DNA of 64,000 nucleotides from Trichaptum fuscoviolaceum (lineage: Eukaryota; Basidiomycota; Agaricomycetes; Hymenochaetales; Trichaptaceae). The position numbers and the translations under genes were made by a program. The notes beneath the pieces are model-generated. The model was not told where the DNA came from. It ran no database searches and saw only the letters and a list, made by a program, of their open reading frames with translations. Position 1 is the stretch's first letter; the number at the start of each line of letters is the position of its first letter. Where the stretch lies: positions 4,419,040 through 4,483,039 of the forward strand of contig CAJSYZ010000009.1 in the NCBI GenBank assembly GCA_910574455.1, written 5' to 3'. This document shows positions 36,042-63,552 of the stretch, piece after piece.

Positions 36042-36048
36042 CCGTGAC
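36042..36048. repeat. Target-site duplication, left copy (CCGTGAC)
   Basis: CCGTGAC is repeated at 63553-63559. Units 1 and 2 carry a single continuous GACCGTGACT at this site. Confidence 0.7.
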
Positions 36049-36049
36049 C

Positions 36050-36071
36050 CATCAGGGAAACTACTTTCTGC
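36050..36071 (+). repeat. Left terminal inverted repeat of the 27.5-kb block
   Basis: CATCAGGGAAACT followed by a 9-nt imperfect extension; 18 of 22 positions pair with 63531-63552. Confidence 0.7.
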
Positions 36072-36658
36072 TGAAAGTGACTTAAGTGTTACTTAAACGT
36101 CCTGAGAGACTGAAGTCTTAAATAAGGCAAGCTTTACTTATTCATGCATGTCCTCCCATTATTCAGGACAAGTTGGCTGAAATAAGTGCGGGCTGGCTTA
36201 AATAAGGAAAGATGGCTGAATCAGTGCTCTAAGTGTTTCAGGCATTCTGCACCCCAGTGCTCCAGTGTATCATCCTTTAATTACAGCAGTAGACAAGTGT
36301 TGTAAGACAAATTGCAGTGCTCAAGAGTCTAAGTGCATAAGAACGTTCCAAGTATTTCATTGCATCAGAAATATATAAGACAACATTATGTAGCTATCAG
36401 TGCCTCAGCGTTCAAGTACATCAGTCATTTACGCAAGACTAAGCATAGCAGTCGCTATCATGGGATCCGCCACGACATTATCCTGAACCTCTTCCGTGAC
36501 GGGCAGTGGCAGGCCACATTTCGCTGCCGTGCCTTTGTTTCTACTGCTACGCCAAAGAACATGCAGAATTGAAGACTGCTCTGCGAGTCGATGGTAATAT
36601 AATGTTGAGCGCACGGACAGAAACGAAAAGAAGAGGCTCACTAGTGATTGATTTGCCC
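36072..36658. other. Left subterminal region
   Basis: No gene. It has repeated ATAAGG, TTCAGGAC, TTTCAGGC and CAGTGCTC words, also found as reverse complements at 63,060-63,530. Confidence 0.5.
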
Positions 36659-39600
36659 TTAGAAGTCTACGCAGTCCGTAGCCGAATCCCATTTTGAAGC
36701 GTCGTCCTCCTCATGATCACCATCTCCACCTAAATCCTTGTCCTTGTCCTTGCCCTCGCCCTCGCCCTCGTCCTCGCCGTCGCCCTCGCCGTCGTCCTCG
36801 CCCTCGTCATCGCCCTCGCCCTCGCCGTCGTCCTCGCCGTCGTCCTCGCCCTCGCCGTCGTCATCGCCCTCGCCGTCGTCATCGCCCTCGCCGTCGTCAT
36901 CGCCCTCGCCGTCATCATCGCCCTTGCACTCAATCTTGTCAACTCCCTCGTCCCCGCTCTCACTCAGGTTGTCGTCACCCTCAGCATTAGCATGCTCGTC
37001 CTCTGCATCACCTTCCACCTCGCCTCTATACTCAGCCACCTCACGCTCTTCGCCCTTATCGTCGGTTCCGTCGGTTCCGTCTTCCCAATTATCAGCGTCT
37101 TCGTCATACGCTTTTTCGCAGGTCGAATCTGCATCTATAACGTCAAAATACAAGGAGAAGTCCCTGCCAGTGATACCCGATCCACAAGTTCGGTGTTCTT
37201 TCTCGTATCGATATCTGTACTGGCATCGTAAGCTAGGAGGCGGGATCGAACCTTTTCCCAGTTTGATTCAGTGAAGAAAGAGGGATTTGACAACAAGTTA
37301 ACATAGTCGTCCGTATGAGGTTGCCACAGAGCGCTAGTGAAATACCACTCAGCGCCGCCAAGTTCTTCTTTGATATTTTGCAACCGAGCCACCTGTTTAT
37401 CAATGGCAACCTTGACCTATCCATGGGAAGATCAGCGAATAAGGACAATATAAGTGCTGAAAAAAGTAGATACCGCTGTTGCCGCAAGGGCGAGGGCACC
37501 GATAGGCTTTCCTATGGTGTTTCTGTCCAGTATTTTATGCCGACCCATGGCCAAGACAATGTGTACGGACAACACTGAGACCACAAGGTCAGAGCAGAAC
37601 AGTCCTTGCTTCTGTAAATTAGGGTCAATGCATGGACACAAAATGCGACAATAAATACTCTTTTACTTACCCTCTCCATACTATACCAGCTTTCCCATAG
37701 AAACGGTTCGGCTTTCTTCTTGTCAACTAGCGACTGCAACGTCTTCACAATTGCTTCGTTTCGCATTGATTTTGATTGTTCGCCGCTGATAAAACTTGCA
37801 ACTGATTGCTCAGCTTTCTCAAAAAGTTTCTTGCGCCAGCTATCAGAGCATCTCTGGGCCACCTGAAATACAAGGATCGCATCTCAATTTGGTAAAGGTG
37901 ACTTGGAGATAAGTTAGATTGACTCAACTAGAGAACAGATATCGGCGAACTGAGTTTCGTAACTGAATTCCACAGAATCAAACACTTTCCCCCACAGTGA
38001 GCTGATGAGCTTATTGTCCGGAGTTTGCCATGGTGTGACGGACTTTCCAACTGCGCGAAATAGTGAAGGTAATAGAATATGAGTCCATCCTGCCTGAGTA
38101 CCGGGAGGGAGACACTGGTTCGTCGCCCTTTTCCTGCCTGGCACGCGAGATCCTTCCCTTCCTTCATTTTGATCCTTGTCCTCAAGTCCCACTGATGTCT
38201 GCATATAAGTAAATCAGCAAAATATGTCATAGAAATGAATTTGATTCGACAAACTGAGCTAGTAGTCCGAGAGACTTTGCGATGACCTTGATAAGCCCCA
38301 GTCACTAACACTTCGGGTCCGGGGGTGCAGGATGCTCTCGTCATTGCAAGGGACGGTGCTCGAGGTGCTAACGACATCTTTCGACCACCAGACTATTAGT
38401 AAGAAAAAAAGGTGAATGTCTACATTTAGAGTGTATCAATCGACTCTCACTTACTTCATTATCAGCCACCAGCGACTGCCTCTTGCGATTAGAGGTAGCG
38501 GATCCAAGCTCCGGCTGCAGCACGTCAGAAAGCTGTTATCCGTGGCAAGTGAACAGCTCGAAAAGAAGCACTTACTGTCATATCGGCCTCAGGCCGATAA
38601 GGAATGTCAGAGGGTTTCCTCTTCTTACTCAAGTCCTTTCCGCCTGATCAGATACGAACTTAAAATGCCGGTTACCATAGAATTGACGCTTACTGTGGCA
38701 CCGGCCTGTGTGTCCATGTCAGTCAACAATGACTTCTTGATCTTGACAGCCTTATTAGCCTATTGAGATGGTTTAAAATAAGTAAACATAAAATGAAGGA
38801 ATTCATTGCACGTGAAGGTAGAAGAATTACCACATTAACCTGAGAGTCGGTGTCTGGTGGCGACTTCCTCTTTCCGTTCTTTGTGACTGTGATGTCCTAT
38901 TCATATTCACACATTAGCGCTCAACTTGAAGTGAAGAAGGAAACGAATAGTTGCCACAGGAGAGCACCGGAAGTGAGCCTACAGTGCATCGACACTCACA
39001 CATACCTGTACACGGGGTTCCAAGGCTAGTGATTGCACCTTACAACCATAAATAAGGGGGGAACGAGAGAAGTTGAGATAAGATAGACTTACCGGTGCGC
39101 TAAGCTGCGAAATAGCAGTCCTCTTGTTTGCATCCTATCAAAATACCAATTCAGTAAGCAATGAAGGAAGGATGTACCATGAAGATCACTGTCTGGTACT
39201 CACCTGTCCACCTGGATTTATCTTGTTATTCTTATCCTCGAGTACGGGAAGGGATTACTCAGTAGATTGAAAAAATGTAGAATGATATGACATCGCTTAC
39301 CGTTGAAACCTGCGACCCGGAAAGAGTGTCACGCAATAACTTCCTTTTCTTCGAGTTGACGTTGCTGCTACCTCCATCCTGTTCATGAGACGGCAGTTGG
39401 CAGATAAACAATAACGAAGGAATATGAACAAACGGTCATGGAGCAACTGACATGAATCGAACAGTAATCAGTCGGACTCACACAAGCTTGAGCCGGCCTT
39501 GTTAGCCTCTTCGGATCACTTCCGCCCTATAAACAAGTTATTCAGACTGCATCTGCCATTCTAATGCTCCGTCAACTCACAACATTTGATTCCGAATCGA

Positions 39601-41027
39601 CAAGATGTGCCTTCTGTTGCACGCTGATTGTGCTATTTTTTACACCATGATAGCTTGTAAGGGTTATTGTTTCTCCTTCATCCTCCCAGGGACTTAAGTT
39701 TTCATCATCTGGCAATTCGACGGTGTGTCTGGTGCAGCTTTGCGTCAGCAAGGCTCATAATATAGTGGTAGCAAAGACAAGAGCGTCAATGTTGCAGGTG
39801 AAGGATTTCCAACTTGAAGTTGGGTCTCGGCCCGGGAGCGTCACGGTAGTAGTAGCCTGAGTAGGTAGTCGGGATGATGATGATCATACTAGTATGAGTT
39901 TAATAATTGAGTCTAAATCAAGCTTCTCACTCACCATTACATCGACTTGACAGTACCAGATACTGATTCAGACGCAATGCAAGATTCAAACCTCAAACTC
40001 ACAAATTGATCCTTTCTGAGTCTATCCCTGCCACTGGCACCTCAAGACCTCCACCCTCTTCACCAATGAAAGTGGAATCATCTGTGTTGCGAAGCGCCCT
40101 GACAGGGCGTTTTGTCTTGTCGTTCCGCCTTGACGTAGCGGGCGAGTCTATTATGTCCGTTTCTTCACCAGAAAGACTCTCGTTCGGTCCTGCAGGAGCG
40201 TGAAAGAATGCGTCGCTGGGAGTCACGGTGGCGGCAGACCTGGACATCTTTGCGGTCTGCACACGTGTGCGAAATGGAAGTTCACCTTTGGAATCTTCTT
40301 TCCTAGCCTTTTTTGCAGGCTCCCTGTTTGGCTCATCCATACTCGCTGCTTCGCATTAAGGTGAGTCACAGTGTTCAACCTCCAAGCTTTGAGATCATCT
40401 GAAAATGTATAGGCAATGTTACTCACGAATATCCAAGTCTTCGTTGTGTCCATCTTCACAACCCGATACGTCTTTAACATCGTTCTTCGAGTCTGTTTAT
40501 GCCAGTTCAAATGATCTGTGTCATCACTGATCTAAAGTTGAAGACTTACTGCTAGCTTCGCCTTTTGGCTTTCTACGTCCACGTTTGCCAGTGAGTTTGG
40601 GCACTGTTGAGCCCATCTGGGTGCGTGTCTCAAGAGCCTTTGACAAGTTGTTTTCAAGCTCTACGGTCTCTAGCATCGCTGCTTCTTGGTTCTCTGCTGC
40701 AGTCACCTTCTTGCGAACCTTGTCAGCTGCCTCTTGTTCTTTTGCTGCCCGTTTTTGCTCCGCAGCGAGTTTTTTCCTCTCTTTCGCAACCGCGACTTGC
40801 TGGGCCGCAGCTCTGCGGAAGGCTGCCCGCTCTTCCTTCTGCTTTTCCTTCTCTTCCTTCTCCTTCAATGCCTCATCCCGCCTCTCTGCCTGCCGTACTT
40901 TCCTTTTCTCTTTTTCTTCCTTCTCCCGCAATATCTCCTCCTGTGTTCGTCTTGTTCTGAGTTGTCCAACGACTGCTCTGGGGTGCTTTTCGCTGTTCTT
41001 AGCTCTTGTCTGTCTTTGAGTTGACAT
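36659..41027 (-). CDS. DUF6532-like nuclear protein, many exons
   Basis: Exon 1 (41027 to about 40550) starts MSTQRQTRAKNSEKHPR and encodes a long charged coiled coil (REKEEKEKRKVRQAERRDEA and following), opening with an RRTQEEI motif. A run of very short exons (about 30-110 nt) follows through 40,340-38,260, rich in K/R patches such as KKRKLLRD and KKRKPSD that look like nuclear localisation signals. The C-terminal globular part (38,200-37,200) reads LPSLFRAVGKSVTPW, then AQRCSDSWRKKLFEKA, then GALALAATAV. These resemble the basidiomycete DUF6532 domain, whose function is unknown. The last exon adds a D/E/G repeat tail (36,738-36,930). No stop was met in the exons I joined. It diverges from the transposase gene, the two starts being 278 bp apart. 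Confidence 0.55.
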
Positions 41028-41305
41028 TTTGTGCAGTGTTTTGAGACTTGTATGATGATAAGATGTGTCGAAGGTGCAAGTTCAAGATCAGGGAGGCGGG
41101 GGCGTCTATCTTAGACAAGTTGAAAATTTACGCCCACTACTACCGTGACTACTCTATGACTAATTTTAACTCAGGTTCAAGTTCACTGCCAGTGGCACTC
41201 CGAGTCCGAGTCACTGCCAGTGCTAGCAGCCTGCCAGTGCCAGTGAGGCTCAGCTGTGAGTCCCAATTGTCAACGTGTACTACTACTGAGGTTACATTCA
41301 AGTTG
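41028..41305. promoter_or_regulatory. Divergent intergenic region between the DUF6532-like gene and the transposase
   Basis: This 278-bp region must hold both promoters. It contains clustered palindromic words (CACTGCCAGTGGCACTCC, CCGAGTCCGAGTC, CTGCCAGTGCC) between 41,173 and 41,250. No TATA box is evident. Confidence 0.45.
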
Positions 41306-44300
41306 ATGCCAGCGACACGGAAAAAGCACGATCCCTTTCATTTTCCACCAACTATTCGATGCACCTTGCCCGGCTGTAGTAGGACGTTCAAGAGTCAATC
41401 TGGAAGAGCAAGACATGAATATTCAGCTCATCCGACGTCATTCTTGGCAAGTTCTTCTGCCTGTGGTCACGAATATGAATCGTCACCTATTCGACCCATA
41501 CGAGCTCCAAGTCCTCAACTTGGAGCTCTCCTGAGGTCGTCCGAACTTCCAACAGAGGGTCATTCTGAGAGCGGCTCTGACTCCTACGATTACGATATTT
41601 CCATGCTTACACAGGATATCTCGATGCTCAGTATAGGCCGAGACGAGCTGCTTCAAGATTTGGACAGACCTCATTCTCTGTCCCATTCTGTCACCGGAAG
41701 TGACAGTGGCCGTTCTGAAGACTTGGATTCCGACATTGGAGATTATAAGGAGAGTGAGGATAACTTGAAGGTGTATCACAGATACTTGAATGGTGCGCGC
41801 CAAATTAATTGTTCCCGGTTTACTGTAGCATTTTGACACCAAACATTGTGCAGCCACTCCATGCGATACAGAAGGGAACTTCTTAGAATATGAAGACTCA
41901 CCCGCTCCGCGAAACGAATCTGCGTCAAATGACTGGTTTCCCTATTCGTGTCGAGCAGATTTTGAGCTCGCAGATTTTCTCTATCGAGAAGAGCAAATGT
42001 CTGCTGGGAACATAACAAAGCTTCTGGGAATCATGAAGGCTTATCAGCTGATTCAGGCGGCGGAGAATGTAAAATCTTGCGGATGTTCCAAATTGGATGC
42101 GACAGAGCCTGACGATGACTTAGATCTGGGTTCAACTAGTACGCTACTCAATGGAGACGCACAAAAAATGTATAACGTCATTGATGCTACGAAAGTCGGT
42201 GATGTGTCTTGGAAATCCTTTAGTAACTTCTACACAGACGACAATGGCCAAAAGGTGACAAATGAGAACACCGAGTCATGGAAGAGGAAAGAATATGATG
42301 TTTGGTATCGGGATCCTTTGGAAGTGATCCGGAATTTGGTGGATAATCCAGCTTTGGAAGGCGAATTCGACTATGTCCCGTTTCGTGAGTATCAGCCGAA
42401 GGAGGACTCTGATGACAACAAAGAACGAGTCTTCAGAAACTACATGTCCGGAAACTTTGCTTGGGAACAGGCTGTAAGTCATGAATCATGCAGCATTCAA
42501 AGTTGGAAGAAGTGTATTGATAATCCTTGACTTAGAACAAAATCTTCGCCGAAGATAAAGCGGTCCATGGGTCTATGTTCGTTCCGGTCATCTTAGGGAG
42601 CGACAAGACAACAGTCTCCGTTGGAACTGGCAACAACGAATATTATCCGTTATATCTTTCAATAGGAAATGTATCTAACAAGGCCCGGCGGTCCCAAAAG
42701 CTGAATACAGTCCAGCTCGTAGCATTTCTAGCAATACCAAAGAGTGTGTGTCAAAAACTGAGCTATTCATTTGTGTTCAAGTTCTGATGCTTTGCAGCTG
42801 AACGGCAGTATGAAAAGTCAGATGACTTCCGTCGCTTTAGACATCAAATCTTTCATTTATCTATATCAAGAATCTTGAGTCCACTGAAGACAGCAATGTC
42901 CATAAACAATGAACAAACCATTCTCCGGTGCCCTGATGGTCACTTGCGTAGGTCAGTTCTCGGACTCGGCTCGTATATAGCCGATTATCCGGAACAGGTG
43001 AGTCTATGCGCAATATGCACTGGATGGTGCTGCAAGTAAGTATTGTCCTTTCCAAAAATCACATCCAACTCGAGTTAGAGAAAATGACTTACTGTGGCCA
43101 TATAGATGTACATCACCTCACAAGAATCTAGATAATCCGGAATTTGTTACAAATCCTCGAACAAAAGAGCTACACAAACGATTGATAGAACAGGTGGATG
43201 ACAACAGCATAAGTAGAGCAACGGTTCGAAAAGAGTATGGGTTCCACCAAGATATTGTGGTAAGTGTTCTAAACTCTCCATACAATGTGAGCTGACCACG
43301 ACTATGCTCCATAGCCCTTCACCAATGACTTTCCACGTGCAGATATATGCGATCTCATTTCTCCGGACCTACTGCACCAAATGATCAAAGGCGTATTTAA
43401 GGATCACCTTGTTGAGTGGATTTGCCAGAGCTTGACCACGACAGAGCTGGACGTTGTGGATAAAAGGTGCTGTTTTTTCACAAGTTGTTTAATGTGAATA
43501 CTGCTGCTAATCTCCGCGTAGAATCAGAGTTGCTGCTCCTTTTCCTGGACTTCGCAGATTTCCCGAAGGCCGAGGCTTCAAGCAATGGACAGGCAATGAT
43601 TCTAAGGCACTTATGAAAGTATATGACCTTTCTGTCTTGTTCGAGGCGGTGGTTTGCTGATATTTGATGCAACTTGCTTAGGTGTATCTTCCGGCTATTG
43701 TGGGCATTGCGCACGATGATATGATTCGCGCATTGAGTGCATTTCTTGACTTCTGTTACCTTGTGCGTCGGTACACGATTACAGTCTCAACTCTTGATCA
43801 AATCAAAGCCTCTTTGGATCACTTTCACCGTTATCGGCAAATATTCATAGCTAAAGGCATCCGGGATAACTTCTCACTTCCACGACAGCATGCCATGATC
43901 CACTATCCTACAATGATCCCTCTGTTCGCTGCACCGAGTGGTCTGTGTTCATCGATCACAGAGAATAAACACATTTACGCGGTGAAGGAAACATGGCGAC
44001 GCTCAAACAGAAATGATCCTTTGGGTCAGATGATCACAGCAAACCAACGTCTCAGTAAACTTATTGCATCGAGGGCAGACTTCAAGAGGCGTGGAATGCT
44101 GGAAAGTCCTCTGGCTGAGGCTTCATGGAGAGCTTTGCAAGATGTTCTGCGCAGGAATATGTCAGAGTCGGAGACAGATGACGCTCAGGCTGAGAGGACC
44201 CAAATTCGGAAGGAGCAGATGCACCATGATCATGATACACCCGTAGCTGGCGCAGCTGATGATACAGAGGACTTCTTCGATGACATTGTGGGCAATAATG

Positions 44301-45285
44301 AACTCAACGAAATTGCAGACCTGGAAGATCCCGAAAGCTTAGTGCATGGGCCTCAGCATCTTGCGGTTCATGACATACTACATGCTGAACGCCAGATGCG
44401 CTTGGGTGGCAGAAATGACCCTTTGAGCTTGATGTTAATGGCTTCGAAGTCACGTAAGTATTAGTACTTAGTAACCCATGCTTTTGGTGCTGCACATCTG
44501 ACTTCTTTGATATCATCCTTGCAGAGTCCAGTACGGTGTACCCTAAGCAACTTAACGCTCTTGCGGCGATAAAAGGCCATCCAGAGCTCCGAAAACTCCC
44601 ACAGCTCATTAAAGACTACTTATTCAACAAGTACGAGAAGCACAACTCCAACTTAAGGGGCTCCTCTGGCAGAGCCGAACCAGCAGTTGAATTGGACATA
44701 AGCAATGACTTTTCAATTTTCCATTCAGCCACCGCTTTCTTTGCCTTCCGTGGCGAATCGATCCCTATAGAACAAGCAATGAGGGAGGTGATCAGGTCCA
44801 ATCCCTCTTGGCGCGGAAAGGCAAGACGTGATGCAGTCCTTGTTCGAGTTAATACTCGCAAAAAGGGGTTTGCAGGAATGCGAGTTGCCCGAGTTATGCT
44901 TCTTTTCTCCTTTGCCGTTAGTAAATTGAAACGTCAGGAATGCGCTCTCGTCCAATTTTTCAAGCGTGTTGGAGACTCGCCTGACCAAAAAACAAGTATG
45001 TGGATTGTCGAGCCGGAATATGAGTTAGACACCTTTACCACCTGTCCTGGTGTGAAAGCCAGTGGCAGACGTCACTACTACCACCGTGACTGCAAGGCTC
45101 CGAAGCTATTTGTGATAGGTATAGGGGATATCTTTCGTTTGGCTCACCTCCTTGGGGTGCCAAAGGGTGATGAATGTCCTCCAAAGTCATTGACACCCGA
45201 GGAGTCCTTGGACTTTTATGATAGATTCTATGTTAACCGATTTGTAGACATGCACATGCACGAAACATTGTACGAAAGTAGATAA
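41306..45285 (+). CDS. Plavaka-type transposase (1,162 aa, nine exons, intact)
   Basis: Exons: 41306-41792, 41854-42473, 42536-42743, 42798-43035, 43106-43259, 43315-43466, 43522-43618, 43682-44453, 44525-45285; phases agree throughout. The N-terminus has a C2H2 finger (CTLPGCSRTFKS...H...H). The core shows the family landmarks in order: YRDPLEVIRNLVDNP, FDYVPFREY, MFVPVILGSDKTTVSVGTG, YIADYPEQ, APFPGLRRFP, LSAFLDFCYLVRR, LPRQHAMIHY, GLCSSITENKH and the C-terminal VDMHMHET. The D in GSDKT, the D in ADYPEQ and the E in ITENKH are candidate DDE residues; this assignment is inference. ATG 41306 is the first in frame upstream of the finger. It should act in the nucleus on the ends of its own element. 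Confidence 0.9.
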
Positions 45286-45865
45286 TGATAAAAACAAACT
45301 CTTCATTTAGCACACAAAGTACAGTAGGCACGATGGTTGGAATTCTCTGTACTACGATGTCCATTTTACTACTAGTACTAGTAGTACTTACTAGTAATAA
45401 GTAGACTCCGACTTGGAGTCGGAGTCGGAGTACACTCACTGGCAGGCTGGCACAACTTGAACTTAGACCTTCAAGCTAAATAAACTTTCTATTTTATTTA
45501 ATACAAGTAGTAATCAAGAAAACATTCACATCACAATACCAACGTTTTCAAACTATACCAATACTAGTACTACTAATCTGCGCTGCGCTCGCAGATTAGT
45601 AGTACAGCACAGAGGAGCTTGAAAAGGGAGTAAACTGATGAAAAATATCAGTACAACCCTTCAAGTTGACAAATTGAATAACCTTCTCATAAACATAAAT
45701 GAAATATTCGAATAGTAATAACTTGAACGGAATGTAGAATGAAAAAAAAGCCTCCGAGTCCTTATTGCGTACTAGTATAGTAGACATTTGCGACACAGTA
45801 CAAGCACAAAGTTATCCCACATGAGTGAGGGTCAATATCGTAGAAGCCGGACCTGCCTGAGCACC
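45286..45865. other. Convergent intergenic region with palindromic words
   Basis: It lies between the 3' ends of the transposase and the 607-aa gene. It is rich in ACTAGTAGTACT and GGAGTCGGAGTC words and A/T stretches. No gene. Confidence 0.55.
45567..45605. terminator. Perfect 16-bp hairpin between convergent genes
   Basis: Stem 45567-45582 pairs with 45590-45605 without mismatch around the loop CTGCGCT. It may be an extruded or RNA structure at the 3' ends of both genes; a terminator role is only a guess from position. Confidence 0.4.
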
Positions 45866-47820
45866 CTAGTTACTACCATCGCGAATGGGTCCCGAGCTGA
45901 TGTTCGAAGAGTCGTCTCCAAGAGGATTAAGGTTTTCGAGAAGCGCTAGTAAGATTTTGTAGTCTTCACAAAAAATTGATTCACTACCAACTGCTGTGGA
46001 GACGAAAGAATCCATCTCGCGCTCTGTCGAAAAAAGGTTCTCGCGGTTGAAGTCATAATCGTCATCGGATTGGTGAAGTTTCTGGACTAAGCCACGTAAA
46101 TCACCCTCGAGGACCTTGACAAGAGGGTTGCTGGCGACTACTCCCGCCCGTTCTTGTACTGTCGGTCGAACGTTGAGATGGAGGATTACGTGCATAAAGA
46201 GGTCGTCCGTAAGAATTAATAGACATTTCTTGATCAAATTGAATTTGTTCAGGAAGGTCTGGCGTTCTTTGCGTAGTTCATCCTCGAACTTCTGCCGGTG
46301 TACAGCATCCTCCATCTTGCCCACTTCACCAACAGTGTACAATTTGATGGATGGCTTTGTGGTATCCTGAACAGCATCCTCCTTCTCCACAGCGTCGATG
46401 ACGGAAACAAGCTTGACGAGGTCGCCTGAGCGTGCCAATCGGTGGCGTACATCCACCGCTGAACCGTGTAGAAATACAGCGGAGTAATCAACTTCTACCT
46501 TCATTTTCGGTGTTCGATCTGCCGATGCCGAACCTGCCAATGAGTCTGGGATGGAGACTTCCTGATGAACTTGTGCAATGAGGGCATCTAACAAAACCAA
46601 ACATTCCTTGCACACGTTGTACGACCATATAAGCAGAGGGACGAAGAACCTCAACGCTTGCACAGGACCCCCTATTACCACTGGCGAGTCATTAGGGTCA
46701 CGCCCGGAAGCCGTGCGCTGCACTGTCGACGTGGACGAGTCAAGGCCTGATGTGAACACTGGCAGCAAAAATTCCATGGCGTGCGGGTGAGAGTAGTTGT
46801 CATTGGTAGTAGAGTTTTGGATCGCCGTCGGAAGTCGAATCATTGCCTCGACCGTGACGCGTACTAGCATCATTAAGGTAAGAGGATTCGAAGAACTTGT
46901 TCTGAAAGCAGGAGAATATGGAATTCTGGTGTATCCACCTCCCATCCCCTTTTAAGCCAACTGGATAGAACACGTAGTGTGAGTGATAAAAGACCGTTAC
47001 GCGATCCAGAAATTTCGACCATCCGGTACCATTGATGAACCTAGTATAGTACTCTCGGCGTTCTCGCGATATGAACTCAGAACTTGGAAGGAGCTCCGCA
47101 AGCGCCAACACCACCATTAACCTTATATCGCCTACAGTGTTCCGAATAGCAAATTCAGCGGACGTCCACTGGCAATCACCGGAGAAGAAAGTCAGTACAA
47201 ATATTATCACGACTGGTACACTGCCAGTGGCAAGTCCGAGTTGTAATGAATTTATGACTTACGTTTGTAAGGTGCACATCATTCAAGTCGCCCATGTACT
47301 TGAGGAGATTAGTCAAGTTCCGTACTGCCCGGAAGTTTATCAACAACTGCCTTTTCTTGACTTTGTCTAGCTCCTCTTGGTAATCATGAAGGGCTTGTCT
47401 TGTCTGTTGGACCACTATCTTAAAGATGGCCACCGTGGAGAGAAGAAGTTTGTCATTCTGGGTCGCATAACGGCGATAAGAATTATGCCGTATCTCGTTA
47501 ACTATCTTCGTGGAGAGTGTGTCAATGGCCTGGATTCCGACGTTCGAGTTCTTAGCGAACACGTCAAGTCGTTTGAGGAGATCGCCTTCGACGAAGCCTG
47601 TAGAGCCGTGAAAGTCTAGAGAAAGTAGACGACCATCTGTCTTCAATTGAGTCTTGCGCTCGATGTTAGATGATTTGAGTTTCCTACCACTAAGAGGATC
47701 CGCCTCGTAACTTGAATACGAGTCGTCACTAGTAGTACTGCCAGTGTCCGAGTCTGTATCATGGTCATCCGGATCGCTGAAGTAGAGGTATGACATTTTC
47801 AGAGTCTTGTCAAAGAGCAA
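45866..47820 (-). CDS. Unknown protein of 607 aa (three exons)
   Basis: Exons 47820-47263, 47168-46939 and 46901-45866 join in frame with no stop. Intron 1 contains the words CCACTGGCAGTG and ACTCGGACTTG; intron 2 is only 37 nt with a GTGGAT donor. An alternative start is MSYLYFSDPD, eight codons downstream. The N-terminus is acidic and serine-rich (DPDDHDTDSDTGSTTSDDSY). The rest looks helical and soluble, with no signal peptide or membrane segment. I do not recognise a domain. It points away from the 1,043-aa gene across a 1.24-kb shared upstream region. Confidence 0.6.
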
Positions 47821-53237: not shown

Positions 53238-53833
53238 GCCCCTTCCTCAACTCCCCCACCATGCGCACAAACTCTCTCATCTCATCCTCTTGCACTACCT
53301 TGAGGCTTGTCATTTTCTTCAACCTTGGCGCTGTCTCCTTCACATACGACATCTTCCATGCGCTGCTCTCCTGCACTTTGTACTAAATTATGTCGTAACA
53401 GATCTGGGCGGAATGGGAGACAGAGGTCTGCACGAGCATGGCACAGGAGTTCAAGGCTGGTGAGTTTATTCTCCTTCTCAATCCTTTTACTTCACGTTAT
53501 TTACATACCATTTGATACAGAATCCTAGCTCACACCGTTTACAGCGCACGCAAGATGGTGCAATTCTGGAACACCGCCAGACAGCACCACCACCATTGCC
53601 ATCGCACTCCTGCTACTAGTAGTACCCAGCATCGACATGATGACTTCCCACGTGGGGTCTGACACTGGCATCACAGGCCCTCCGTCGTCACCACTGACAG
53701 CCATGGTCAGGTTGGAAACTAGAGACTTCCGGAGACACTTTCATTGTTGTGGGGACTGGTAAGTAGCCCTAGTAGTTATCCGCTATTGCAACAATAGCTC
53801 ATGACCCGATGAACACAACTACATGACTGGCTG

Positions 53834-54894
53834 ATGCTATGGTTGTTGAAGCGCTTAGAATGCCAGCACGCTTACGAGTTCGAGACGACAGCGCGCACCA
53901 TCTTGCCGGGCAAGTCTTCTTTCAGAGACAAGTCATTCGGAGATGAGGAGCTCAAAGGCTTCCAGTTTGCCTCACCAGACGACCATCAAATTCATATCTA
54001 TTTCGCTGATTCCATGGCTCATGGCGGGGATTTAAGAGATGCTCCTTGCCGACACAAGGGACTTCTTGCAATCAGAGAAGGTATGTACATAAAGTGCCAC
54101 ACATCGACTGAAAGTTTAACCTCTCTTTCTGAATCAGTGGTGCGCTGACCGTGGTAACCGCTCTCGTCGCGACAATTTCCTCTATCGTGTCCCTGGCTTG
54201 GGCAGATCATCGTTGATCCATGCCCTTGCTGGCGCGCTCATGCTCGACATTCTCGCCATCTCACGTTCCGCTCTTTGGATGAACGATGTGACGTTGTCGT
54301 CGCTTATGGGCCGTGTGCCTGCCCCGTGAATTGTCCTTCTCGAGGACCTTGACGCTGCATTCACTCGCTCAACTTCGCGCGACGGGTCCTCAACCTGTGT
54401 TCCTGGTGGTAAGAAGAAGAGCTCTTTGTTGTCCGACAACAAGGATAAGATGACGATGATGACGACAATGAAGAAATTGGCAAGAAGAAGAAAAGCAAGA
54501 AAATATGACACTCTATCCGACGTGAACACGCTCTCTCTTTCTGGCTTTCTTAATGCACTTGATGGTGTCGCCGCTGCTGTTGGCCGCTTCCTCGTCCCGT
54601 CGCAGCGACGAACCATCTTGAGCGTTTCGACCCCGCGCTCTCGCACCCCGGTGGTATGGATGTTTGGATCGAGTTCAAAAGCGCAAGCCCTAGGCAGGCT
54701 CAAGCGCTCTTCTGCGACTTCTTCCTGTACGCGGACGTCAAGAAGCCCGAGATCACCAAACGCGAAGGCGAGCTCGATGGGATCAGCCTCCCCACCCCAC
54801 CCCATCCTCTGGATCGATTTCGGAAATTCCGGTGTCGGTATTTGCGTCCGATGCCTCGAGTACCGCAACCTTGAGCTCGAGCTCATTGATTAGA
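53834..54894 (+). pseudogene. BCS1-like AAA+ ATPase pseudogene (copy 1)
   Basis: BCS1 landmarks appear in order but in different frames. They are RLECQHAYEFETTART and HQIHIYFADS (BCS1 N-terminal region), GLGRSSLIHALAGALMLD (Walker A, with the lysine changed to R), MGRVPAP then a stop and IVLLEDLDAAFTRSTSRD (Walker B), DVNTLSLSGFLNALDGVAAA, and after a frameshift HLERFDPALSHPGGMDVWIE. BCS1 is a mitochondrial inner-membrane translocase; basidiomycetes carry many related genes. Loss of the Walker A lysine, an internal stop and frameshifts make this non-functional. Confidence 0.85.
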
Positions 54895-54954
54895 GGTGCG
54901 TCAAACAGTCTACCTGACGTTGGCAAAGCAGCTCACGACGCAAATTGCGAATTC

Positions 54955-55809
54955 GAATGCCAGTGCCAGCCTGAGTGTTTTGGTGTCGTGGGAAATTACT
55001 CAAAAGGCCTAAGTTACAGGATATGTTGATTTTTTACAACAGAATGCACAGTGCATTCACCATTCTAACTTTGCAGAAAGCTTCTTTAGATGTCTTACTA
55101 TACATCATAAAATTATCAAGAGTATCTGATTAGTTGTTCAGAAGATATTACAGAAAGAATGTCAGATTCATGAATTAAAAGCAAATTTTGGCTTTATTTG
55201 GCATTTTTGAGGTACTCGGCACTTTCAAGAGCCATGCAGGCAATAACCAGTCATGAAACTCCTATAGTAGGACAAGTAGACATATAGCTATATGCTGCTA
55301 AATTTTGAAGCTTTATGGGTTTGAGATGAGAGTTTCCGGCAGCATATAAAGACGAAAATGATGCCAAATTTGGTAACCCCGAGAACACTGAAAGTCCTTG
55401 TTATCTTCTTACTTCAAGTTTGATTGAGAATTTCCTTTCTTTTTATACTATTATACGTAGAACAAAGATGCAGTTATACACACATATTTATAGAATTTTT
55501 GCTGCTATGGAAGTAATAAAACTCGAAAAACCAGAAATCAGGGGGGTGACAATCATCTTTAGTACTACTACTAGTAGTAACCGGCTGTACTAGTAGTAAC
55601 TTAGTAAGCCTGAGTAGTACTACTAGTACTAGTACTAGTAGTAGTAGTAAGCACTGCCGGTGCCATGGCACTGCCAGCCTGAGTGCCACTGGTTGAAGAC
55701 GACGCACTCAGTTTCCCACTGCATTCTTTCCCATTTCGTCCCAATAGTACTACCTATTCATCTTGAACTCGAAAGCACAACAGCAACGACTTCAACTTGA
55801 ATCAGCATC
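54955..55809. other. A/T-rich spacer with palindromic words
   Basis: No gene supported. From 55,560 on it is dense in ACTAGTAGT and GCACTGCC words. Confidence 0.55.
55546..55589. repeat. Relic Tc1-type terminus split by an ACTAGTAGT word
   Basis: GTGACAATCATCTTTAGTA, then 15 nt (CTACTACTAGTAGTA), then ACCGGCTGTA. Without the 15 nt this is the right end of the Tc1-like transposon at 24,151-24,178 with two differences. No partner terminus was found nearby. Confidence 0.65.
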
Positions 55810-58743
55810 ATGCTGGCATCATCCAAGCCATCGCGTAGAAATCTGATTCCGCGTGAGTCCTACAGCTTTCTACTACGTTCTCCTATACCGGCAGCAATGA
55901 TTAATGAGATATCCAGCTTTGCCAAGGGAAGGCTTTGATTTGATAGAATTGTCTCGGCAGATCACGGGCTTTCACCCATCCAACGAGGAAAATAGTATTC
56001 AATCTGCAAGGCAGAGACTAGAAGGTGTCATCGATGGCATATGGCCAGGTGAGTCCTACTTTCTCCTTCGCCGGTAGTCCTGCTTTGTTGACTACTTCTA
56101 CTCGTGGCAGAGAATCAGAGTCTGAGCGGATCAATAGTGCCTCATAGAACCCCTCGGATGCCAACAAACACTCACACTGGCATGTCGACTCGCGAAGTTG
56201 ACACTGTCCGACCTGGCAGTACTTCCCCAACTCAGGCGCCTACCGTCGTACAGGCTCACTGTACACTGGCACCAAATCGCGCCACACGAAGGGAAACTAT
56301 CTCGCCTTTAGAACAGGAGGAATATTACTATGGCCTGGAGGGGGCTCCTCGCCTGGTCGGGCGCACCGGCGGCGACTGGGAACGGACTAACATGCGGAAA
56401 TGCGTAGGGGTTGTGGGTGATCACCGCATTACTGAGTTCTGGGATGCAGACTTGTTCCCGAAAATATTGCCGATATTCAAGGCACTATATCTCGAGGGGC
56501 ACGGAAAGGCGAACCTATTTGAGGTTAACCGCGTTGGCCTCGAACGCCCTGCCAGTGTGGGCATTAGACACGAGTGGCCCGCTGAAAATGAGTGGCCCGT
56601 CGTTGTTATGATCGGAGTTGATACGGAGCCCAGTCTCCACCCTAAAGTGGGATGCTGGGCTGCGGAGAGGGTGAAGGACATACTATGGGAGCTCGCAATT
56701 TATGATGTCGAGGTCGAGATTAGGGAACGACTTATCAAACGGGCTTCCGGCGATAACACAGATGGCCCTGCTAATATGAAGCGTAACCGTACTCAGGCTG
56801 GTGACGATGACGTTCCTGAGGCTGTCGATGGCAATCACCACCTAAAGCGCCCTAGACCATCTTTCACTCCGTCTGCCCCCGGTCAGAGCATCAACGACCC
56901 TCATAGTGACTCTGACGCCGCTCACGGTGTTCAAGGCCAAGGCTGGCCTACAGGATCGAAAAATATCTCGTCCACTCCCGCCAGCCGCTCCCGCCTGATC
57001 CGAGCAAGCCCTATGGTTCTAGAGCCACGTATAATGGGCAACTATGAAGATCGCCATACCGCCAACACGTACTTACAGCGCCTTGCTGCGCCTTTCACCA
57101 CATGTGTTGGGATATGCCTTGGCATCACTGAGACCAGGGGCAAAACGCAGTATGACAGCTATTCAACCGGGTCACTGTTTGGGATTAAGATACAAAACGA
57201 GAAGCCCATCTTATATGCCCTCGGTTGTCGACATGGCACCATTCCATTTAATTTACAGTTCTATCTTCATCCGCAGCCTGAGGATTCTGAAAGCGACTTG
57301 GAGGATGCCAGCTTGAAGAAAGGCAAGAAATCCAATAAGAAGGGCAAGAAGGGCGTCAAAGGGAACAAGAAGGGCAACAAAACATCGAAAGGCGCTGGCA
57401 AGAACTATAAAATCACGGAAGCCTCTCACTACATCGACTACAAACATGACGAGAACTCGAATTATAAGGCCTATGTTTCGCTGTTCACGCAGAAGAAGCT
57501 GGCTGACCACTTACCAATGATGGAACGCGAGTTGGAAAATCAGAGGAAAGATTTCAATCTTCTCGTGGATAAGGAGATCATAAAAGATCGTAATGTAATG
57601 AAGATAGTCCAAAAGGAATGCGATGACGCGACAGCTTTCTTCAAGAAGGTCGAGGGATGCGAATCGAATGTCCAGTGTATGGAGCAGTTTGGATATGTCG
57701 AATTCTCTCCGGGAAGATTCAATCGGTTTAATGAGGAAGGTGACGCGAAGAAGCCGAGGACTAACAAGCACCCCTATGCATCGGACTGGGCGTTGATCAG
57801 GATTTGTGACGACCGTCTCCCATCTGACATGGATATTCTCTGCAACCAGCATCGGAAGGGGCAATTTTGGAATTATGCAGACTTGAGAAGGTATGAACCA
57901 AAGAGCATGTGTGGTTCAGCTGCTTTCGACGACATTCTGGAGTTCATGGGATGGAAGGAAGGCACTCAAGTACATGATGGTCTGGTGCATATCAAAGATT
58001 TCACGAAACCGCGCGACATCTACAGCCGTCTTTATCAAGAAGAAACGGACGAACAAGCGATTAAAGATAAGCAGCTCCATAGAGCACTAGCGAATGATGG
58101 CACAAAGGTCGTATCCTCGAAGCTTGAAACAAGACGGGTATATAAGTTTGGTTGGACAACTGGCCACACAGTGGGCGTTTATAACAATATCACTTCCTAC
58201 TGGGTCGATCTTACACTAGAATATGATGTCACAGTCTCCGGTGAAGGCAAACGTCGCAAAACCTGTGGAATCAAAGAAGGTGTAAAGGGCGTCGAGAGTT
58301 GCTGGCAGGCGGCCCTGCAATTTCCACCCGGCAAGCACTTCGGTGGTCCTAGCCGTATATTTGGAGACCAAGGTGATTCCGGAAGCTTGGTCATCGACCA
58401 GGATGCCAACGCACTTGGTACAATCACCTTTGTTACGACTTCGACCGAATGGCTACTCGATGGGTTCACTTACGGAGTCCCTATTTGGCAACAATTGTCG
58501 GAGATGCGCACCTCAGGCTTCGGTTACGGTGATATTCATTTCGGATTCGAATCACAAGAGGATGATGCAGTGATGTCGGAACTTGCGGAATATCATCCAC
58601 AGATTAAGGTAACTAGGGCTTACAAGGGCTCGAGTACATGGAAAGCGTGGTCTAATGAGGAGCACCACAAGGTTGAGCGAGAACGAAAAGCATTGGGACC
58701 GTTTAATTCACTTAGACCGCAGACTCGGAGTCAGACAAAGTAG
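55810..58743 (+). CDS. Trypsin-like serine peptidase domain protein (935 aa, three exons)
   Basis: Exons 55810-55852, 55917-56048 and 56111-58743 join in frame. The C-terminal half carries a chymotrypsin-fold triad: H433 in ALGCRHG, D617 in SDWALIRI and S815 in GDQGDSGSLV. VYKFGWTTGHTVG lies between D and S, a usual feature of PA-clan peptidases. A lysine/glycine-rich insert (KKGKKSNKKGKKGVKGNKKG, about residues 460-490) lies between H and D. The N-terminal half (YYYGLEGAPRLVGRTGG, then VVMIGVDTEPSLHP) resembles basidiomycete proteins that commonly precede such a peptidase. There is no signal peptide, so the protein is probably intracellular. Its substrate is unknown. It is framed by the two 2.47-kb repeats. 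Confidence 0.8.
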
Positions 58744-59291
58744 CCTGAGGACTCAGGCTTGTACTCATACTATTTCTAACTGTTTTCTTTTCGTAGTATT
58801 ACCTCATACCAGTGCATACCACTAGTATTCAAGTTGTGTCTTTGTATGTTTGTCTCCTGTTCTGTGTTCGTCGACCTTATACTTGTGTTTTCTGTGCATC
58901 GGTATTCAAGTTGTTGTATGACTGTATGTAAATAAAAAACGATATGAATTGTTTACTAACTATTCCGAGTCGGACTTGGACTCACTGGCACCAGTGATGC
59001 TCTAATTACTGCCCGATAAATTCACGACTGGCTCGAATCCGGGTCTACCAACCTGAAGACCGAACATCGTTACGGGTCACTGTTCGGCAACTTGAACTTT
59101 TGAGCTGAACTTCAAGTTGAAGTCCCACGACTCGGTCTCAGGCTCTGACTCGGAAGTTCTTCCGACTCGGAGGTCAGCTTGAAGTCGGAAACTACTAGTA
59201 CTAGTAAACTAAGCCTGAGGGGCGAAGGTCGGTCCGGCTACTACTACAACTGCTCTGCTCGACAACTATTAGGTATAATAATTTTAATGGA

Positions 59292-59510
59292 ATGACCGGT
59301 TGTTATTCTCGGGACGTTCTAGGTCAGAGGGAACTGGACGGCTTGACTTATGCTATTGCCTTCTGGCAGACGACGGAGGAGCTGGAACAAATGGGCTTTG
59401 CGACCAACCTTGATTCAAAGACAGACACGCAACTTGGTAGTATTGTTTTCCCGACTCCGAGTCAGCAAGAGCCCGACGTGGACATCGCCGCTCGCCTTTT
59501 CCCAGACTGA
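59292..59510 (+). pseudogene. C-terminal fragment of a trypsin-like peptidase (copy 2)
   Basis: Identical in translation to 53019-53237. It lies 550 bp downstream of the intact peptidase gene that it resembles. Confidence 0.55.
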
Positions 59511-60106
59511 GCCCCTTCCTCAACTCCCCCACCATGCGCACAAACTCTCTCATCTCATCCTCTTGCACTACCTTGAGGCTTGTCATTTTCTTCAACCTTG
59601 GCGCTGTCTCCTTCACATACGACATCTTCCATGCGCTGCTCTCCTGCACTTTGTACTAAATTATGTCGTAACAGATCTGGGCGGAATGGGAGACAGAGGT
59701 CTGCACGAGCATGGCACAGGAGTTCAAGGCTGGTGAGTTTATTCTCCTTCTCAATCCTTTTACTTCACGTTATTTACATACCATTTGATACAGAATCCTA
59801 GCTCACACCGTTTACAGCGCACGCAAGATGGTGCAATTCTGGAACACCGCCAGACAGCACCACCACCATTGCCATCGCACTCCTGCTACTAGTAGTACCC
59901 AGCATCGACATGATGACTTCCCACGTGGGGTCTGACACTGGCATCACAGGCCCTCCGTCGTCACCACTGACAGCCATGGTCAGGTTGGAAACTAGAGACT
60001 TCCGGAGACACTTTCATTGTTGTGGGGACTGGTAAGTAGCCCTAGTAGTTATCCGCTATTGCAACAATAGCTCATGACCCGATGAACACAACTACATGAC
60101 TGGCTG

Positions 60107-61166
60107 ATGCTATGGTTGTTGAAGCGCTTAGAATGCCAGCACGCTTACGAGTTCGAGACGACAGCGCGCACCATCTTGCCGGGCAAGTCTTCTTTCAGAG
60201 ACAAGTCATTCGGAGATGAGGAGCTCAAAGGCTTCCAGTTTGCCTCACCAGACGACCATCAAATTCATATCTATTTCGCTGATTCCATGGCTCATGGCGG
60301 GGATTTAAGAGATGCTCCTTGCCGACACAAGGGACTTCTTGCAATCAGAGAAGGTATGTACATAAAGTGCCACACATCGACTGAAAGTTTAACCTCTCTT
60401 TCTGAATCAGTGGTGCGCTGACCGTGGTAACCGCTCTCGTCGCGACAATTTCCTCTATCGTGTCCCTGGCTTGGGCAGATCATCGTTGATCCATGCCCTT
60501 GCTGGCGCGCTCATGCTCGACATTCTCGCCATCTCACGTTCCGCTCTTTGGATGAACGATGTGACGTTGTCGTCGCTTATGGGCCGTGTGCCTGCCCCGT
60601 GAATTGTCCTTCTCGAGGACCTTGACGCTGCATTCACTCGCTCAACTTCGCGCGACGGGTCCTCAACCTGTGTTCCTGGTGGTAAGAAGAAGAGCTCTTT
60701 GTTGTCCGACAACAAGGATAAGATGACGATGATGACGACAATGAAGAAATTGGCAAGAAGAAGAAAAGCAAGAAATATGACACTCTATCCGACGTGAACA
60801 CGCTCTCTCTTTCTGGCTTTCTTAATGCACTTGATGGTGTCGCCGCTGCTGTTGGCCGCTTCCTCGTCCCGTCGCAGCGACGAACCATCTTGAGCGTTTC
60901 GACCCCGCGCTCTCGCACCCCGGTGGTATGGATGTTTGGATCGAGTTCAAAAGCGCAAGCCCTAGGCAGGCTCAAGCGCTCTTCTGCGACTTCTTCCTGT
61001 ACGCGGACGTCAAGAAGCCCGAGATCACCAAACGCGAAGGCGAGCTCGATGGGATCAGCCTCCCCACCCCACCCCATCCTCTGGATCGATTTCGGAAATT
61101 CCGGTGTCGGTATTTGCGTCCGATGCCTCGAGTACCGCAACCTTGAGCTCGAGCTCATTGATGAGA
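60107..61166 (+). pseudogene. BCS1-like AAA+ ATPase pseudogene (copy 2)
   Basis: It has the same remnants and the same internal stop in the Walker B region as copy 1. One A is missing near 60,775, which restores a longer local frame, and a TAG near the end of copy 1 is GAG here. Confidence 0.85.
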
Positions 61167-61226
61167 GGTGCGTCAAACAGTCTACCTGACGTTGGCAAAG
61201 CAGCTCACGACGCAAATTGCGAATTC

Positions 61227-62043
61227 ATCAAACGGGAAAAAGTATTACTTCATCTTAGATATCGTTCAAGTAGTCATGTCCTATTCCTCGACAAACACCT
61301 CTGTGCCACCACCATTGCCGCCGAAACGGAGATCGCTCGGTTTCAATATGCAGAATAAGTCGATTATCGGCCAACAGCGCAATCCCCCCAGCTCTAAGGA
61401 CAAGAAACGCTCCTTCATTTAAACTACTTCTTCCATAGCGGATTGGGATGCATTGATCCCATTTCCCACATTGGCATGGTTCCGGTTTCGAGTTGTATCC
61501 AGGGATGACTGATTGTATGATGGCTTACTCGTGGCTTTGCCTTCTAGAGCTGATGGAACAGCTTCTTGTGCAGTGGGCTATGTCTTCCTGACTTCTTCGG
61601 AGTTAACCTGACTCACTTTCTTGTTTGTTTGTGCATAAAATGAAAAGAAGCCTCATAATCGAGTCATCTAGAAGAAATCCTTCTTATCTCCTGTCAGTTC
61701 AGCTTGAGGTTTATCCGAGCCATAGTATAATGCACTGATAGATTCCTCTCTTCTTTTCCCAGAAGAATAAGGCATCAGAAAAATGCGTGCAAGAGCTTTG
61801 TATAAATGTGAACTCGGAGTGGGTGTCGCCCCTCCCCGCCACCCACCCACCCATTCAACCCTTCGCCATGAACTTTTATCACATTCTGTTGGGGCTCCAC
61901 ATGCTCCTATTGATTGACCATGCTGTGCTTCGAGTACGCATCGCGCGAAGACTTCCTTGGACACAAAGGAGGATATCTAGGATGCAAAAAACTGTACTTA
62001 CTTTCTATTTCCTCTCAAAATCACTGCACTGACTTTTTGCCAG
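61227..62043. other. Spacer with possible 5' exon of the exonuclease gene
   Basis: It includes short ORFs (61,276-61,422; 61,914-62,000). The stretch ending near 62,000 before a GTACTT donor could be an upstream exon of the following gene, but I could not fix its frame. Confidence 0.35.
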
Positions 62044-62913
62044 CTTTACAAATGGACACAATATCTCCTCGACTACCTGGGGGTTCCGCCAACGCCTCTT
62101 CTTCAACTTCGCAGTTATACACTCAGACCTCTTGTTCCTGAAGTATGTCTGACCACCGCGACGATGGAGAATGCCGTAGACGTCATCTATGCTTCCTTGC
62201 CGGATGCCCCGGAACGACGCTTCGTTGCCCTCGACATTGAATGGGCGAGTAACGTACCAGGACTATATCGCGTGGACCTCATCCAACTCGCGGTTCAGCA
62301 ACATGTGTTCCTCCTCCGGACTCATCTACTTAATGCTCTTCCCCCAAGATTGGAACAATTATTAGGTGATGAAACTGTATGGAAAGTGTCAGCAGGAATC
62401 GCTGGTACGAGAGTCCCATTTCTTCTCTCATTATGCGGCATAACTGAACTAATTGGCAGGTGATGCAACTCGCATCAGGAATAAATTTGGCGTTCCTGTG
62501 ACCTCCTGCGTCGATTTGACAGATTGGGCGCGCCTCGTCTACCCCGATTTCTGGCCAAGAACGCCAACTTGGCTCCAGCTGCTTCTGAACCCCCGTCTCT
62601 GGTTCAAGTTTCCGCAACCGTTTATAAAGCTGGAGGAGATGGCGGGCAGACTCCTGCAGACAAACATCGAAAAAGATGTCTTGGTCACGATGAGCAATTG
62701 GGCCGAAGTTGAGCTGTCGGCTGCTCAAGTCCATTGTAAGTTATCCTTTTCAAGTTGTCACTCAGGCTGACCATCTTCTCACTTGCATCTGCTCTATTAG
62801 ATGCGGCAATCGACGCGCACAGCACGTTTGCTGTTGCTTCCGTCTTGAATCAAGATGCCTTGGCCTTACCGGAAACAGTAATCCATCACTTCCCAATGCT
62901 CGATATTGAGTAG
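62044..62913 (+). CDS. DEDDy 3'-5' exonuclease (RNase D/WRN-like), start uncertain
   Basis: Exons 62044-62404, 62460-62735 and 62801-62913 join in frame; a 5' exon is probably missing from this call. WTQYLLDYLGVPPTPL and SYTLRPLVPEVC precede the nuclease fold, as in related fungal proteins. FVALDIEWASN gives the first D and E, DLIQLAV the following strand, IAGDATRIRNKFG the second D region, and YAAIDAHSTFAV the final Y...D. This order marks the DEDDy group, which trims nucleic acids from 3' ends. The second intron contains CAAGTTG and CTCAGGCTGA words. The gene is the last one before the right terminus of the 27.5-kb block. Confidence 0.75.
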
Positions 62914-63530
62914 GCTGAGGCCCGTTTGAATAGTGCTAACGGTGTTATCTTGTTGAGTAAATTGTTGAGTGTATGCTCTTGTCTTCAAAAGTTGCCAGGA
63001 GCATCGTGATTGTATCTATTATTGAATTGCTTCTCGTTGAATGATCATTGTAGACTGAGGTTGTCAATGGTGTTTGCTGTCGCTTTCAAGATGTCATGAA
63101 GATGAAGGTAGCTTGAAATCTCAAAACAGAGGTTCAAGTTCACTTGAGTACAGTAGTGGTAGTAGTAAATCTCACTTGAGTCTGACTTGCCGCCTGATGT
63201 ACAGCTTCCCTCCTTACGCACTGATTTTGTCCTGAAACGCCGTTTTAAGGCCATCAGGCAGCCAGGCAACACTTCAGGCAGGCATGACAACGCTTCAACC
63301 CATTTAAGGAAGCTTCAGGACGCGCCAGCCGCCGTTAGCAATCTCTGATGTATTACACTTGAGCACTGAAATCCTGACTTGCATTCTGATGCACTGAGAG
63401 ACGGCTTGCATCCTGAAACACTCCTTATTTCAGTGAGATAAGGCAATCAGTGTATTTTCAGACGAAGTAGTGACCCTTCAGACAGGTGCCAGCCAAATCA
63501 GGACGCGTCAGGACGCGTCAGTCGCCGTAA
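62914..63530. other. Right subterminal region
   Basis: No gene. CCTGAAAC, TTCAGGCA, TCAGGACGCGTCAGGACGCG and CAGTGA-type words are repeated; reverse complements of several occur at 36,072-36,450. Confidence 0.5.
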
Positions 63531-63552
63531 GCAAAAGGAAGTTTCCCTGATG
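63531..63552 (-). repeat. Right terminal inverted repeat of the 27.5-kb block
   Basis: It ends AGTTTCCCTGATG, the reverse complement of the left end CATCAGGGAAACT. Confidence 0.7.

Follow-up and report, generated by a model that had tools for sequence, protein, structure and literature searches.

An apparently autonomous PlavakaB-type transposon and its high-copy family of giant, modular relatives in Trichaptum fuscoviolaceum

Structure of the element and its insertion site

A 64,000-nucleotide stretch of the Trichaptum fuscoviolaceum genome (assembly GCA_910574455.1, contig CAJSYZ010000009.1, positions 4,419,040-4,483,039), called the window here and the frame for all window coordinates, contains a giant DNA transposon of the PlavakaB type. 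This window element (W) occupies 36050..63552 on the plus strand, measures 27,503 base pairs (bp) and is delimited by inverted termini and a 2-bp target-site duplication; a paralogous sequence preserves the empty site. From left to right it carries a DUF6532-like gene region, a Plavaka transposase gene, a gene whose counterparts in related elements are highly variable (the slot gene), a large gene of unassigned family, a serine-protease-like gene between two copies of a long repeat, and an exonuclease-domain gene.

The left terminal inverted repeat (36050..36072, plus strand) and the right one (63530..63552, minus strand) agree perfectly over 13 bp and at 20 of 23 positions over 23 bp, with mismatches counted by eye. 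The 13-bp word CATCAGGGAAACT begins at position 36050, its reverse complement covers 63540-63552, and the window contains neither of them elsewhere. The flanks read GTGACC/CATCA on the left and TGATG/CCGTGAC on the right, the slash marking the junction. Joined with one copy of CC removed, they give CGTGACC/GTGACTGC. A paralogous unit of the surrounding tandem array, outside the element at approximately 21740..22110 (plus strand), reads CGTGACCGTGACTGC and passes through the insertion point unbroken, as does a second array unit at about 12300-12800. Since the joined flanks match the uninterrupted paralogue across the junction, the target-site duplication is CC (36048..36049 on the left, 63553..63554 on the right).

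These comparisons agree with the original prediction, made from the window alone, that a block with inverted termini breaks an array unit, and they move the start of the block from 36049 to 36050. The 7-bp direct repeat noted earlier, CCGTGAC, occurs twice at the empty site too and so preceded the insertion; a 7-bp target duplication is rejected.

The subterminal zones (36050..36449, plus strand, and 63153..63552, minus strand) share words such as CAGTGC, AAATAAG and CCTGA/TCAGG, as had been noticed earlier. Together the outer 400-bp ends contain 73 repeated 8-mers, against a mean of 13.8 and a maximum of 29 in 300 shuffles. Among 16 interior pieces of W used as a control, one holds 75 repeated 8-mers, more than the ends, and the next 44. 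The ends of two further elements contain 61 and 62, where shuffles reach at most 32 and 33 and the richest interior pieces 157 and 54.

The transposase gene (41306..45285, plus strand) is modelled with nine exons (41306-41770, 41829-42473, 42536-42743, 42798-43035, 43106-43259, 43315-43466, 43522-43618, 43682-44453 and 44525-45285) encoding 1163 amino acids (aa). Every intron is GT-AG and there is no internal stop, as expected from the intact Plavaka-type transposase first proposed; the protein matches PF18759 with an E value of 1.4e-116 over profile positions 4-325 of 325. At least 2157 relatives were found at E 0.001 or better when the best 7992 candidates were scored. The named relatives among the 120 matches listed are 45-59% identical and presumably all come from mushroom-forming fungi.

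PlavakaB is defined by 5'-CATCA..TGATG-3' termini and a target-site duplication of 2 or 3 bp (Kojima 2025, PMC12730594). W has these termini, it has the Plavaka transposase domain, and a 2-bp duplication is present in eight of eight elements, with an empty site for W in addition. On the sequence of its termini, its 2-bp duplication and its transposase domain, W is classed as PlavakaB. The block thus exists as one DNA transposon: the ends, the duplication, the empty site and the intact transposase all belong to a single cargo-bearing Plavaka-type element, as originally proposed.

Divergent from the transposase, on the minus strand, lies the DUF6532-like region (36659..41027). Its three predicted pieces (36659-38204, 38341-39003 and 39999-41027) may form one gene. 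The first matches PF20149 with E 0.0023 and 18.3 bits; the earlier assignment to DUF6532 thus has a profile match behind it, but one that falls under the 24-bit cut-off. The first predicted exon has a ratio of nonsynonymous to synonymous substitution rates (dN/dS) of 0.22-0.41 in four comparisons, the fifth consisting of one nonsynonymous (N) and no synonymous (S) change. A short-period repeat at 36740..36930, seen in self-BLAST and in the list of open reading frames (ORFs), codes for an acidic tract in this minus-strand gene.

A genome-wide family of giant elements

The 13-bp terminus occurs 495 times in the 59.09-Mb genome, 259 times forward and 236 times in reverse, and its reversed-pattern control occurs 0 + 0 times. 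The 28-bp left end is found at 165 places and a degenerate 28-bp right end at 214, with no match to either control. On contigs 1-2, 96 of 100 listed places of the 13-bp terminus were taken further. Ends were paired over the stretch covered by both end lists, from C1 to C5:3.33 Mb (26.5 Mb), using 75 of 100 listed left ends and 99 of 100 listed right ends. An inward-facing right end lies within 130 kb of 71 of the 75 left ends and within 45 kb of 62; in the outward control only 3 of 75 left ends pair within 45 kb. Four left ends have no partner within 130 kb. The search for inverted termini 5-40 kb apart that had been suggested for this genome therefore comes out in favor of paired ends.

One-to-one pairing yields 69 elements of 13.7-63.4 kb, 2.02 Mb in total, or about 7.6% of the mapped 26.5 Mb with nested insertions counted in. 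W had been presented as a singular giant and is instead one member of a large family. Sizes recur: eight pairs measure 17.16-17.37 kb and nine measure 20.04-20.19 kb, which suggests that whole units have been copied. All eight whole elements tested for it have perfect 2-bp duplications, CC in W and AT, TA, TA, TT, TT, GA and AT in the seven others. The 28-bp left end was absent from viral contigs, a collection from which records of the source genome may be excluded.

Cargo was mapped onto these elements with 97 of 102 slot-gene matches (five second fragments were set aside), 50 of 58 protease matches, 123 typed transposase places (from 165 matches and 834 candidates, of which 123 were scored), and 22 of 49 matches to the W cassette described below. 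The last comprise 12 other full-length copies, six interrupted copies and four of a 74% class, after removal of W's own match, second fragments and short matches. Inside the 69 paired elements fall 45 of 55 slot matches (W cassettes counted), 17 of 21 protease matches and 45 of 54 typed transposase places. The genome searches for slot and protease genes scored the best candidates only, and their counts are lower bounds.

Shared core and exchanged cassettes

Eight elements have in common the left 9.2 kb or so, which carries the transposase and, on the minus strand, the DUF6532-like gene; identity in BLAST pieces is 83-99% (interrupted in the element e31), and the right parts of the eight differ. 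Compared with W, each of seven other transposase copies has a dN/dS of 0.18-0.21, which points to purifying selection between classes; protein identity between classes is 84-93% over aligned codons. The transposases of e18 and e21 have one stop codon each. On the DUF6532 side, e21 (L019) is 85-99% identical per 250-bp bin to window 36050-41050. Such similarity, despite a transposase dS of 0.43 between the two subfamilies, suggests that exchange has reached into the core too.

The switch from core to cassette can be placed closely. W and e31 are 91-99% identical as far as window position 45,323, immediately after the transposase stop codon; beyond it, save for a repeat copy, there is no match until about 55,615, from where the two are 97% identical to the end. 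A 6.7-kb cassette of W (45800-52480) is present at 19 loci including W, at 13 of them in full length and 98-100% identical, and the interrupted loci are 96-100% identical.

Within this cassette lies the slot gene of the W class (45866..47796, minus strand), which comes in at least three reading-frame pieces and agrees in position and strand with the variable slot gene of other elements. In other elements the slot gene lies to the right of the transposase on the opposite strand and has the shared motifs FFxPxF, KRWLxI and LNxIxHxR. A search with one class gave at least 102 matches in the genome (102 of 216 candidates scored), either 88-100% or 27-33% identical and none between; 91 of the 102 are without internal stop. 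The distance between left end and match is 9.6-10.0 kb in 20 non-W-class elements, and of 36 non-W cases 35 have the match on the strand opposite to the transposase. With classes drawn at a threshold of 75% identity, their representatives share 20-45% with one another, one pair reaching 71%. Twenty further copies, picked by hand and mostly from stop-free matches, include 18 open frames of 428-465 aa and two shorter ones (311 and 297 aa). Between classes the slot gene has a dS of 1.4-1.6, near saturation and from poor alignments, against 0.34-0.37 for the transposase in comparable class pairs. The slot profile A1 recovered two proteins in a protein search (best 7993 candidates scored), both on contigs under 3 kb and, judged by eye, of the e21 type.

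The cassette also contains a gene (49314..52449, plus strand) for a predicted 992-aa protein of unassigned family. It was considered as a slot relative, a suggestion left unsupported by a probability of 1.1%.

Next to the cassette, the two copies of a 2,467-bp duplication (52488..54954 and 58761..61226, both plus strand, 99.9% identical) sit on either side of the protease segment. The repeat is putatively a BCS1-like remnant, in line with the BCS1 remnants named in the original prediction; the Pfam scan of two window ORFs from the repeat returned no BCS1 match. The elements e17, e18 and e31 each hold one copy of the repeat, and a 22.1-kb W-class element (C4:1794129-1816240) has no protease match. 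Single repeat copies elsewhere and a protease-free W-class element would make W a recombinant of two such elements; W looks like a W-class element that gained its protease segment through the flanking 2.47-kb repeat.

The gene in that segment (55904..58743, plus strand) has a 925-aa model with the motifs RHG, SDWALI and GDSGS, which we take to be protease-like. Related frames occur in at least 58 matches at about 50 places. Seventeen, including W, extend at least over residues 1-854, and one of these is interrupted by a stop; the five relatives that were fetched all have frames of 776-881 aa, again one with a stop. Its 858-aa frame found no match at E 0.001 in 5.8 billion proteins (best 7242 candidates scored).

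Near the right end, a gene with a 209-aa model (62164..62913, plus strand) has the 3'-5' exonuclease domain PF01612 at E 5.9e-13, in line with the exonuclease predicted earlier, and a dN/dS of 0.54-0.59. The A-type elements (L013-L015, L016-L018 and L022-L024) contain a GT5-domain fragment (PF08323, E 7.7e-7), which we assume to be alpha-glucan-synthase-like. The piece adjoining it covers residues 7-258 at 99-100% identity in 21 places, with a stop inside. Given these copies and the many more distant relatives elsewhere in the genome, the GT5-domain gene fragment was probably captured from the host. A search of two fragments of this gene against PDB was empty.

Patterns of substitution in the cargo genes

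Substitutions were evaluated under a uniform model and under a measured spectrum, taken from the parts of these elements other than the slot gene and the transposase, in which the expected nonsynonymous share is 0.69. CpG transitions in the measured spectrum occur at about five times the rate of other C-to-T changes. This excess fits cytosine methylation of these elements, which may carry it.

Amino-acid changes exceed expectation in the class A slot gene and in the protease-like gene of W. The 11 class A copies have 165 N and 24 S changes and a dN/dS of 2.0 (P 4e-4 under the uniform model, 3.5e-9 under the measured spectrum); without the two most distant copies the counts are 45.8 N and 3.2 S (P 0.002 and 2.5e-5). 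Five chosen slot pairs give P values of 1e-3, 8e-7, 1e-5, 2e-5 and 0.04 under the measured spectrum. Between e20a and e20b the transposase has 3 N and 3 S changes in 1139 codons, and the slot gene has 18.8 N and 0.2 S in 439, where about 3.4 changes are expected from the flanks. In another element pair the transposase has a dN of 0.011 and a dS of 0.018, the slot gene 0.151 and 0.077. The e18 and L037 slot classes taken together give P 1.6e-4 under the measured spectrum. For the protease-like gene, W against six relatives gives P values of 1.7e-5 to 2.2e-3 under the measured spectrum and, under the uniform model, a dN/dS of 1.5-2.6 with P 0.006-0.12; the six comparisons share the W copy and are close to a single comparison.

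Relation to known elements

PlavakaB as described (Kojima 2025, PMC12730594) shares with W the termini, the 2-bp duplication, the transposase and, in some families, the presence of cargo. The cargo in those Plavaka families is a TET/JBP gene; Pfam returned none for the proteins scanned here, no dedicated search of all copies having been made. The family in T. fuscoviolaceum differs from PlavakaB, as far as the accessible description goes, in being modular, mostly 17-60 kb in size, and equipped with slot and protease-like genes. Relatives in the CMCT clade have likewise been enlarged by extra genes: a 2019 review (PMC6431247) cites 16-20 kb En/Spm (CACTA) families with four or five ORFs in Chondrus crispus, which is a red alga, and the part of that description available to us contains no variable slot gene. 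Plavaka and KDZ elements are reported from another mushroom, Marasmius oreades, where Plavaka is also abundant (PMC8290104, PMC9674265). Its library of transposable elements has entries of up to about 42 kb, their family unstated in the sections consulted (PMC9674265), and cargo modules are not among the features described in those sections. With Plavaka cargo, enlarged CACTA-type elements and entries of about 42 kb already in print, size and cargo by themselves no longer make a giant Plavaka new, as the original prediction had supposed. What looks new is a Plavaka family that is both giant and modular and has a slot gene that diversifies; a literature search with partial coverage, including few subscription journals, found no published description of one.

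Two other systems offer parallels. VANDAL elements encode class-specific accessory proteins, the anti-silencing VANC proteins, in an arms race over silencing (PMC5735166, PMC10398659). They are plant elements, and the analogy with the slot gene is functional and depends on the function proposed for it below. Starships (PMC12134995), with cases in Tremella (PMC13066641), are likewise giant fungal elements that mobilize cargo; they are moved by a tyrosine recombinase captain, whereas the family described here has a Plavaka transposase.

Possible mechanism and alternative explanations

The ends, the duplication, the empty site, the intact transposase, the dispersed cassette copies, the elements of equal size and the differing cassettes of otherwise matching elements can all be read directly from the genome. 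From these features, the block is very probably an autonomous-looking PlavakaB transposon of the CMCT clade, whose family of giant modular elements is present in high copy number. By analogy with that clade, the transposase, which has a C2H2-like zinc finger, would bind the ends and the subterminal repeats, perhaps assisted in end binding by the divergent DUF6532-like protein. The DDE transposase would then move the whole unit by cut and paste, and cassettes could be swapped by recombination between co-resident copies.

The slot and protease-like genes may serve as accessory factors in a conflict whose most likely opponents are host silencing or other family copies; we regard this as a tentative reading. 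It would explain the discrete old classes, the mostly open frames and the partial excess of amino-acid change. It is likewise conceivable, if short of probable, that the slot is a hypervariable recognition locus on a DDE transposon, encoding a class-specific factor against host silencing or rival copies, whose old, discrete protein classes have stayed mostly intact, with selection diversifying them in class A at least and recombination shuffling them between elements. If these readings hold, mushrooms would have a DDE-transposon counterpart of the cargo-rich giants best known as Starships, with phage-like exchange of modules, and the slot gene would be a genetic handle on how large fungal transposons escape silencing. 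With at least 102 slot-gene matches in one genome, the conflict idea is directly testable.

Several observations weigh against such a role. In three of the four multi-copy slot classes, e18, e31 and L037 (four copies each, the frame-shifted e17 and e31 copies being left out), dN/dS is 0.75, 0.95 and 0.73 with no amino-acid excess, and alone these classes give P 0.24-0.85 over both nulls (0.24-0.54 under the measured spectrum). The contrast between genes seen in e20a and e20b is absent between e27 and e20b, where the transposase has 6:0 and the slot gene 5:0 N to S changes. Within class A the transposase itself appears unconstrained, at 3:3 (e20a-e20b), 9:3 (e20a-e27) and 6:0 (e20b-e27). The comparison of the W-class slot gene with its nearest class is uninformative about selection, the five fetched protease relatives have a dN/dS among themselves not different from 1, and the selection tests share sequences and are thus non-independent. 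The W slot gene aligns with the others at an hhalign probability of 30-37% over 31-35 residues, which is suggestive of homology. Structure prediction makes the slot protein mostly helical at low confidence (pLDDT 47) and is too poor for use, as is that of the protease-like protein (pLDDT 29). For the latter, Pfam, NCBIfam and PDB searches lend no support to a protease family: its frame found nothing in PDB, and with a protease profile the hits were two chimeras, both weak (E 0.064 and 1.5). Of the trypsin-like peptidase first proposed, the motifs are present and the family assignment is without such support.

The strongest alternative is that the slot gene evolves fast from relaxed constraint only and that its classes reflect old subfamily divergence. 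Because three of the four classes show no excess, we consider this possible with about the same weight as a conflict role. It is less easily reconciled with the class A counts, with the e20a-e20b pair, in which the slot gene changed so differently from the transposase, with slot frames that are mostly open, or with the higher between-class dS of the slot gene, subject to the saturation noted above.

A second alternative, that a smaller ordinary Plavaka has been inflated by nested transposons and gene debris and that its cargo is non-functional, seems unlikely to us. Nested elements do occur, presumably a Gypsy-like long terminal repeat (LTR) retrotransposon in e31 (L025-L028) and a hAT-like element in e27 (L022-L024); several of the longest elements have the slot gene well away from its normal position; and the GT5-domain fragment of A-type elements is broken. 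Yet elements are already 17.2 and 20.05 kb long at their common sizes, most slot and protease frames are open, and the changes in the class A slot gene and the W protease-like gene exceed the measured spectrum.

That two independent small insertions or chance termini mimic one element is highly improbable and is rejected: the 13-bp word by itself is a weak anchor and four left ends lack a partner, but the genome counts, the inward pairing with a shortest pair of 13.7 kb, whole blocks recurring at equal sizes, the duplications in every element tested and the empty site in the paralogue all speak for single units. A Starship-like element moved by a tyrosine recombinase, which large size plus cargo might suggest, is more improbable still, given the DDE-type Plavaka transposase, inverted termini and 2-bp duplication, and the Pfam scan of window ORFs, a subset of all, gave no match to a tyrosine recombinase domain.

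Surroundings of the element

The window to the left of the element (1-36049) is a tandem array, in which 12784-16076 matches 24186-27538 at 85% and 19527-21375 matches 33679-35507 at 89%. At 475-5866 lies an LTR retrotransposon with identical 485-bp LTRs and a 1376-aa frame, which we take to be Copia-like. A 351-aa frame on the minus strand (23008-24063) resembles, we believe, a Tc1/mariner transposase.

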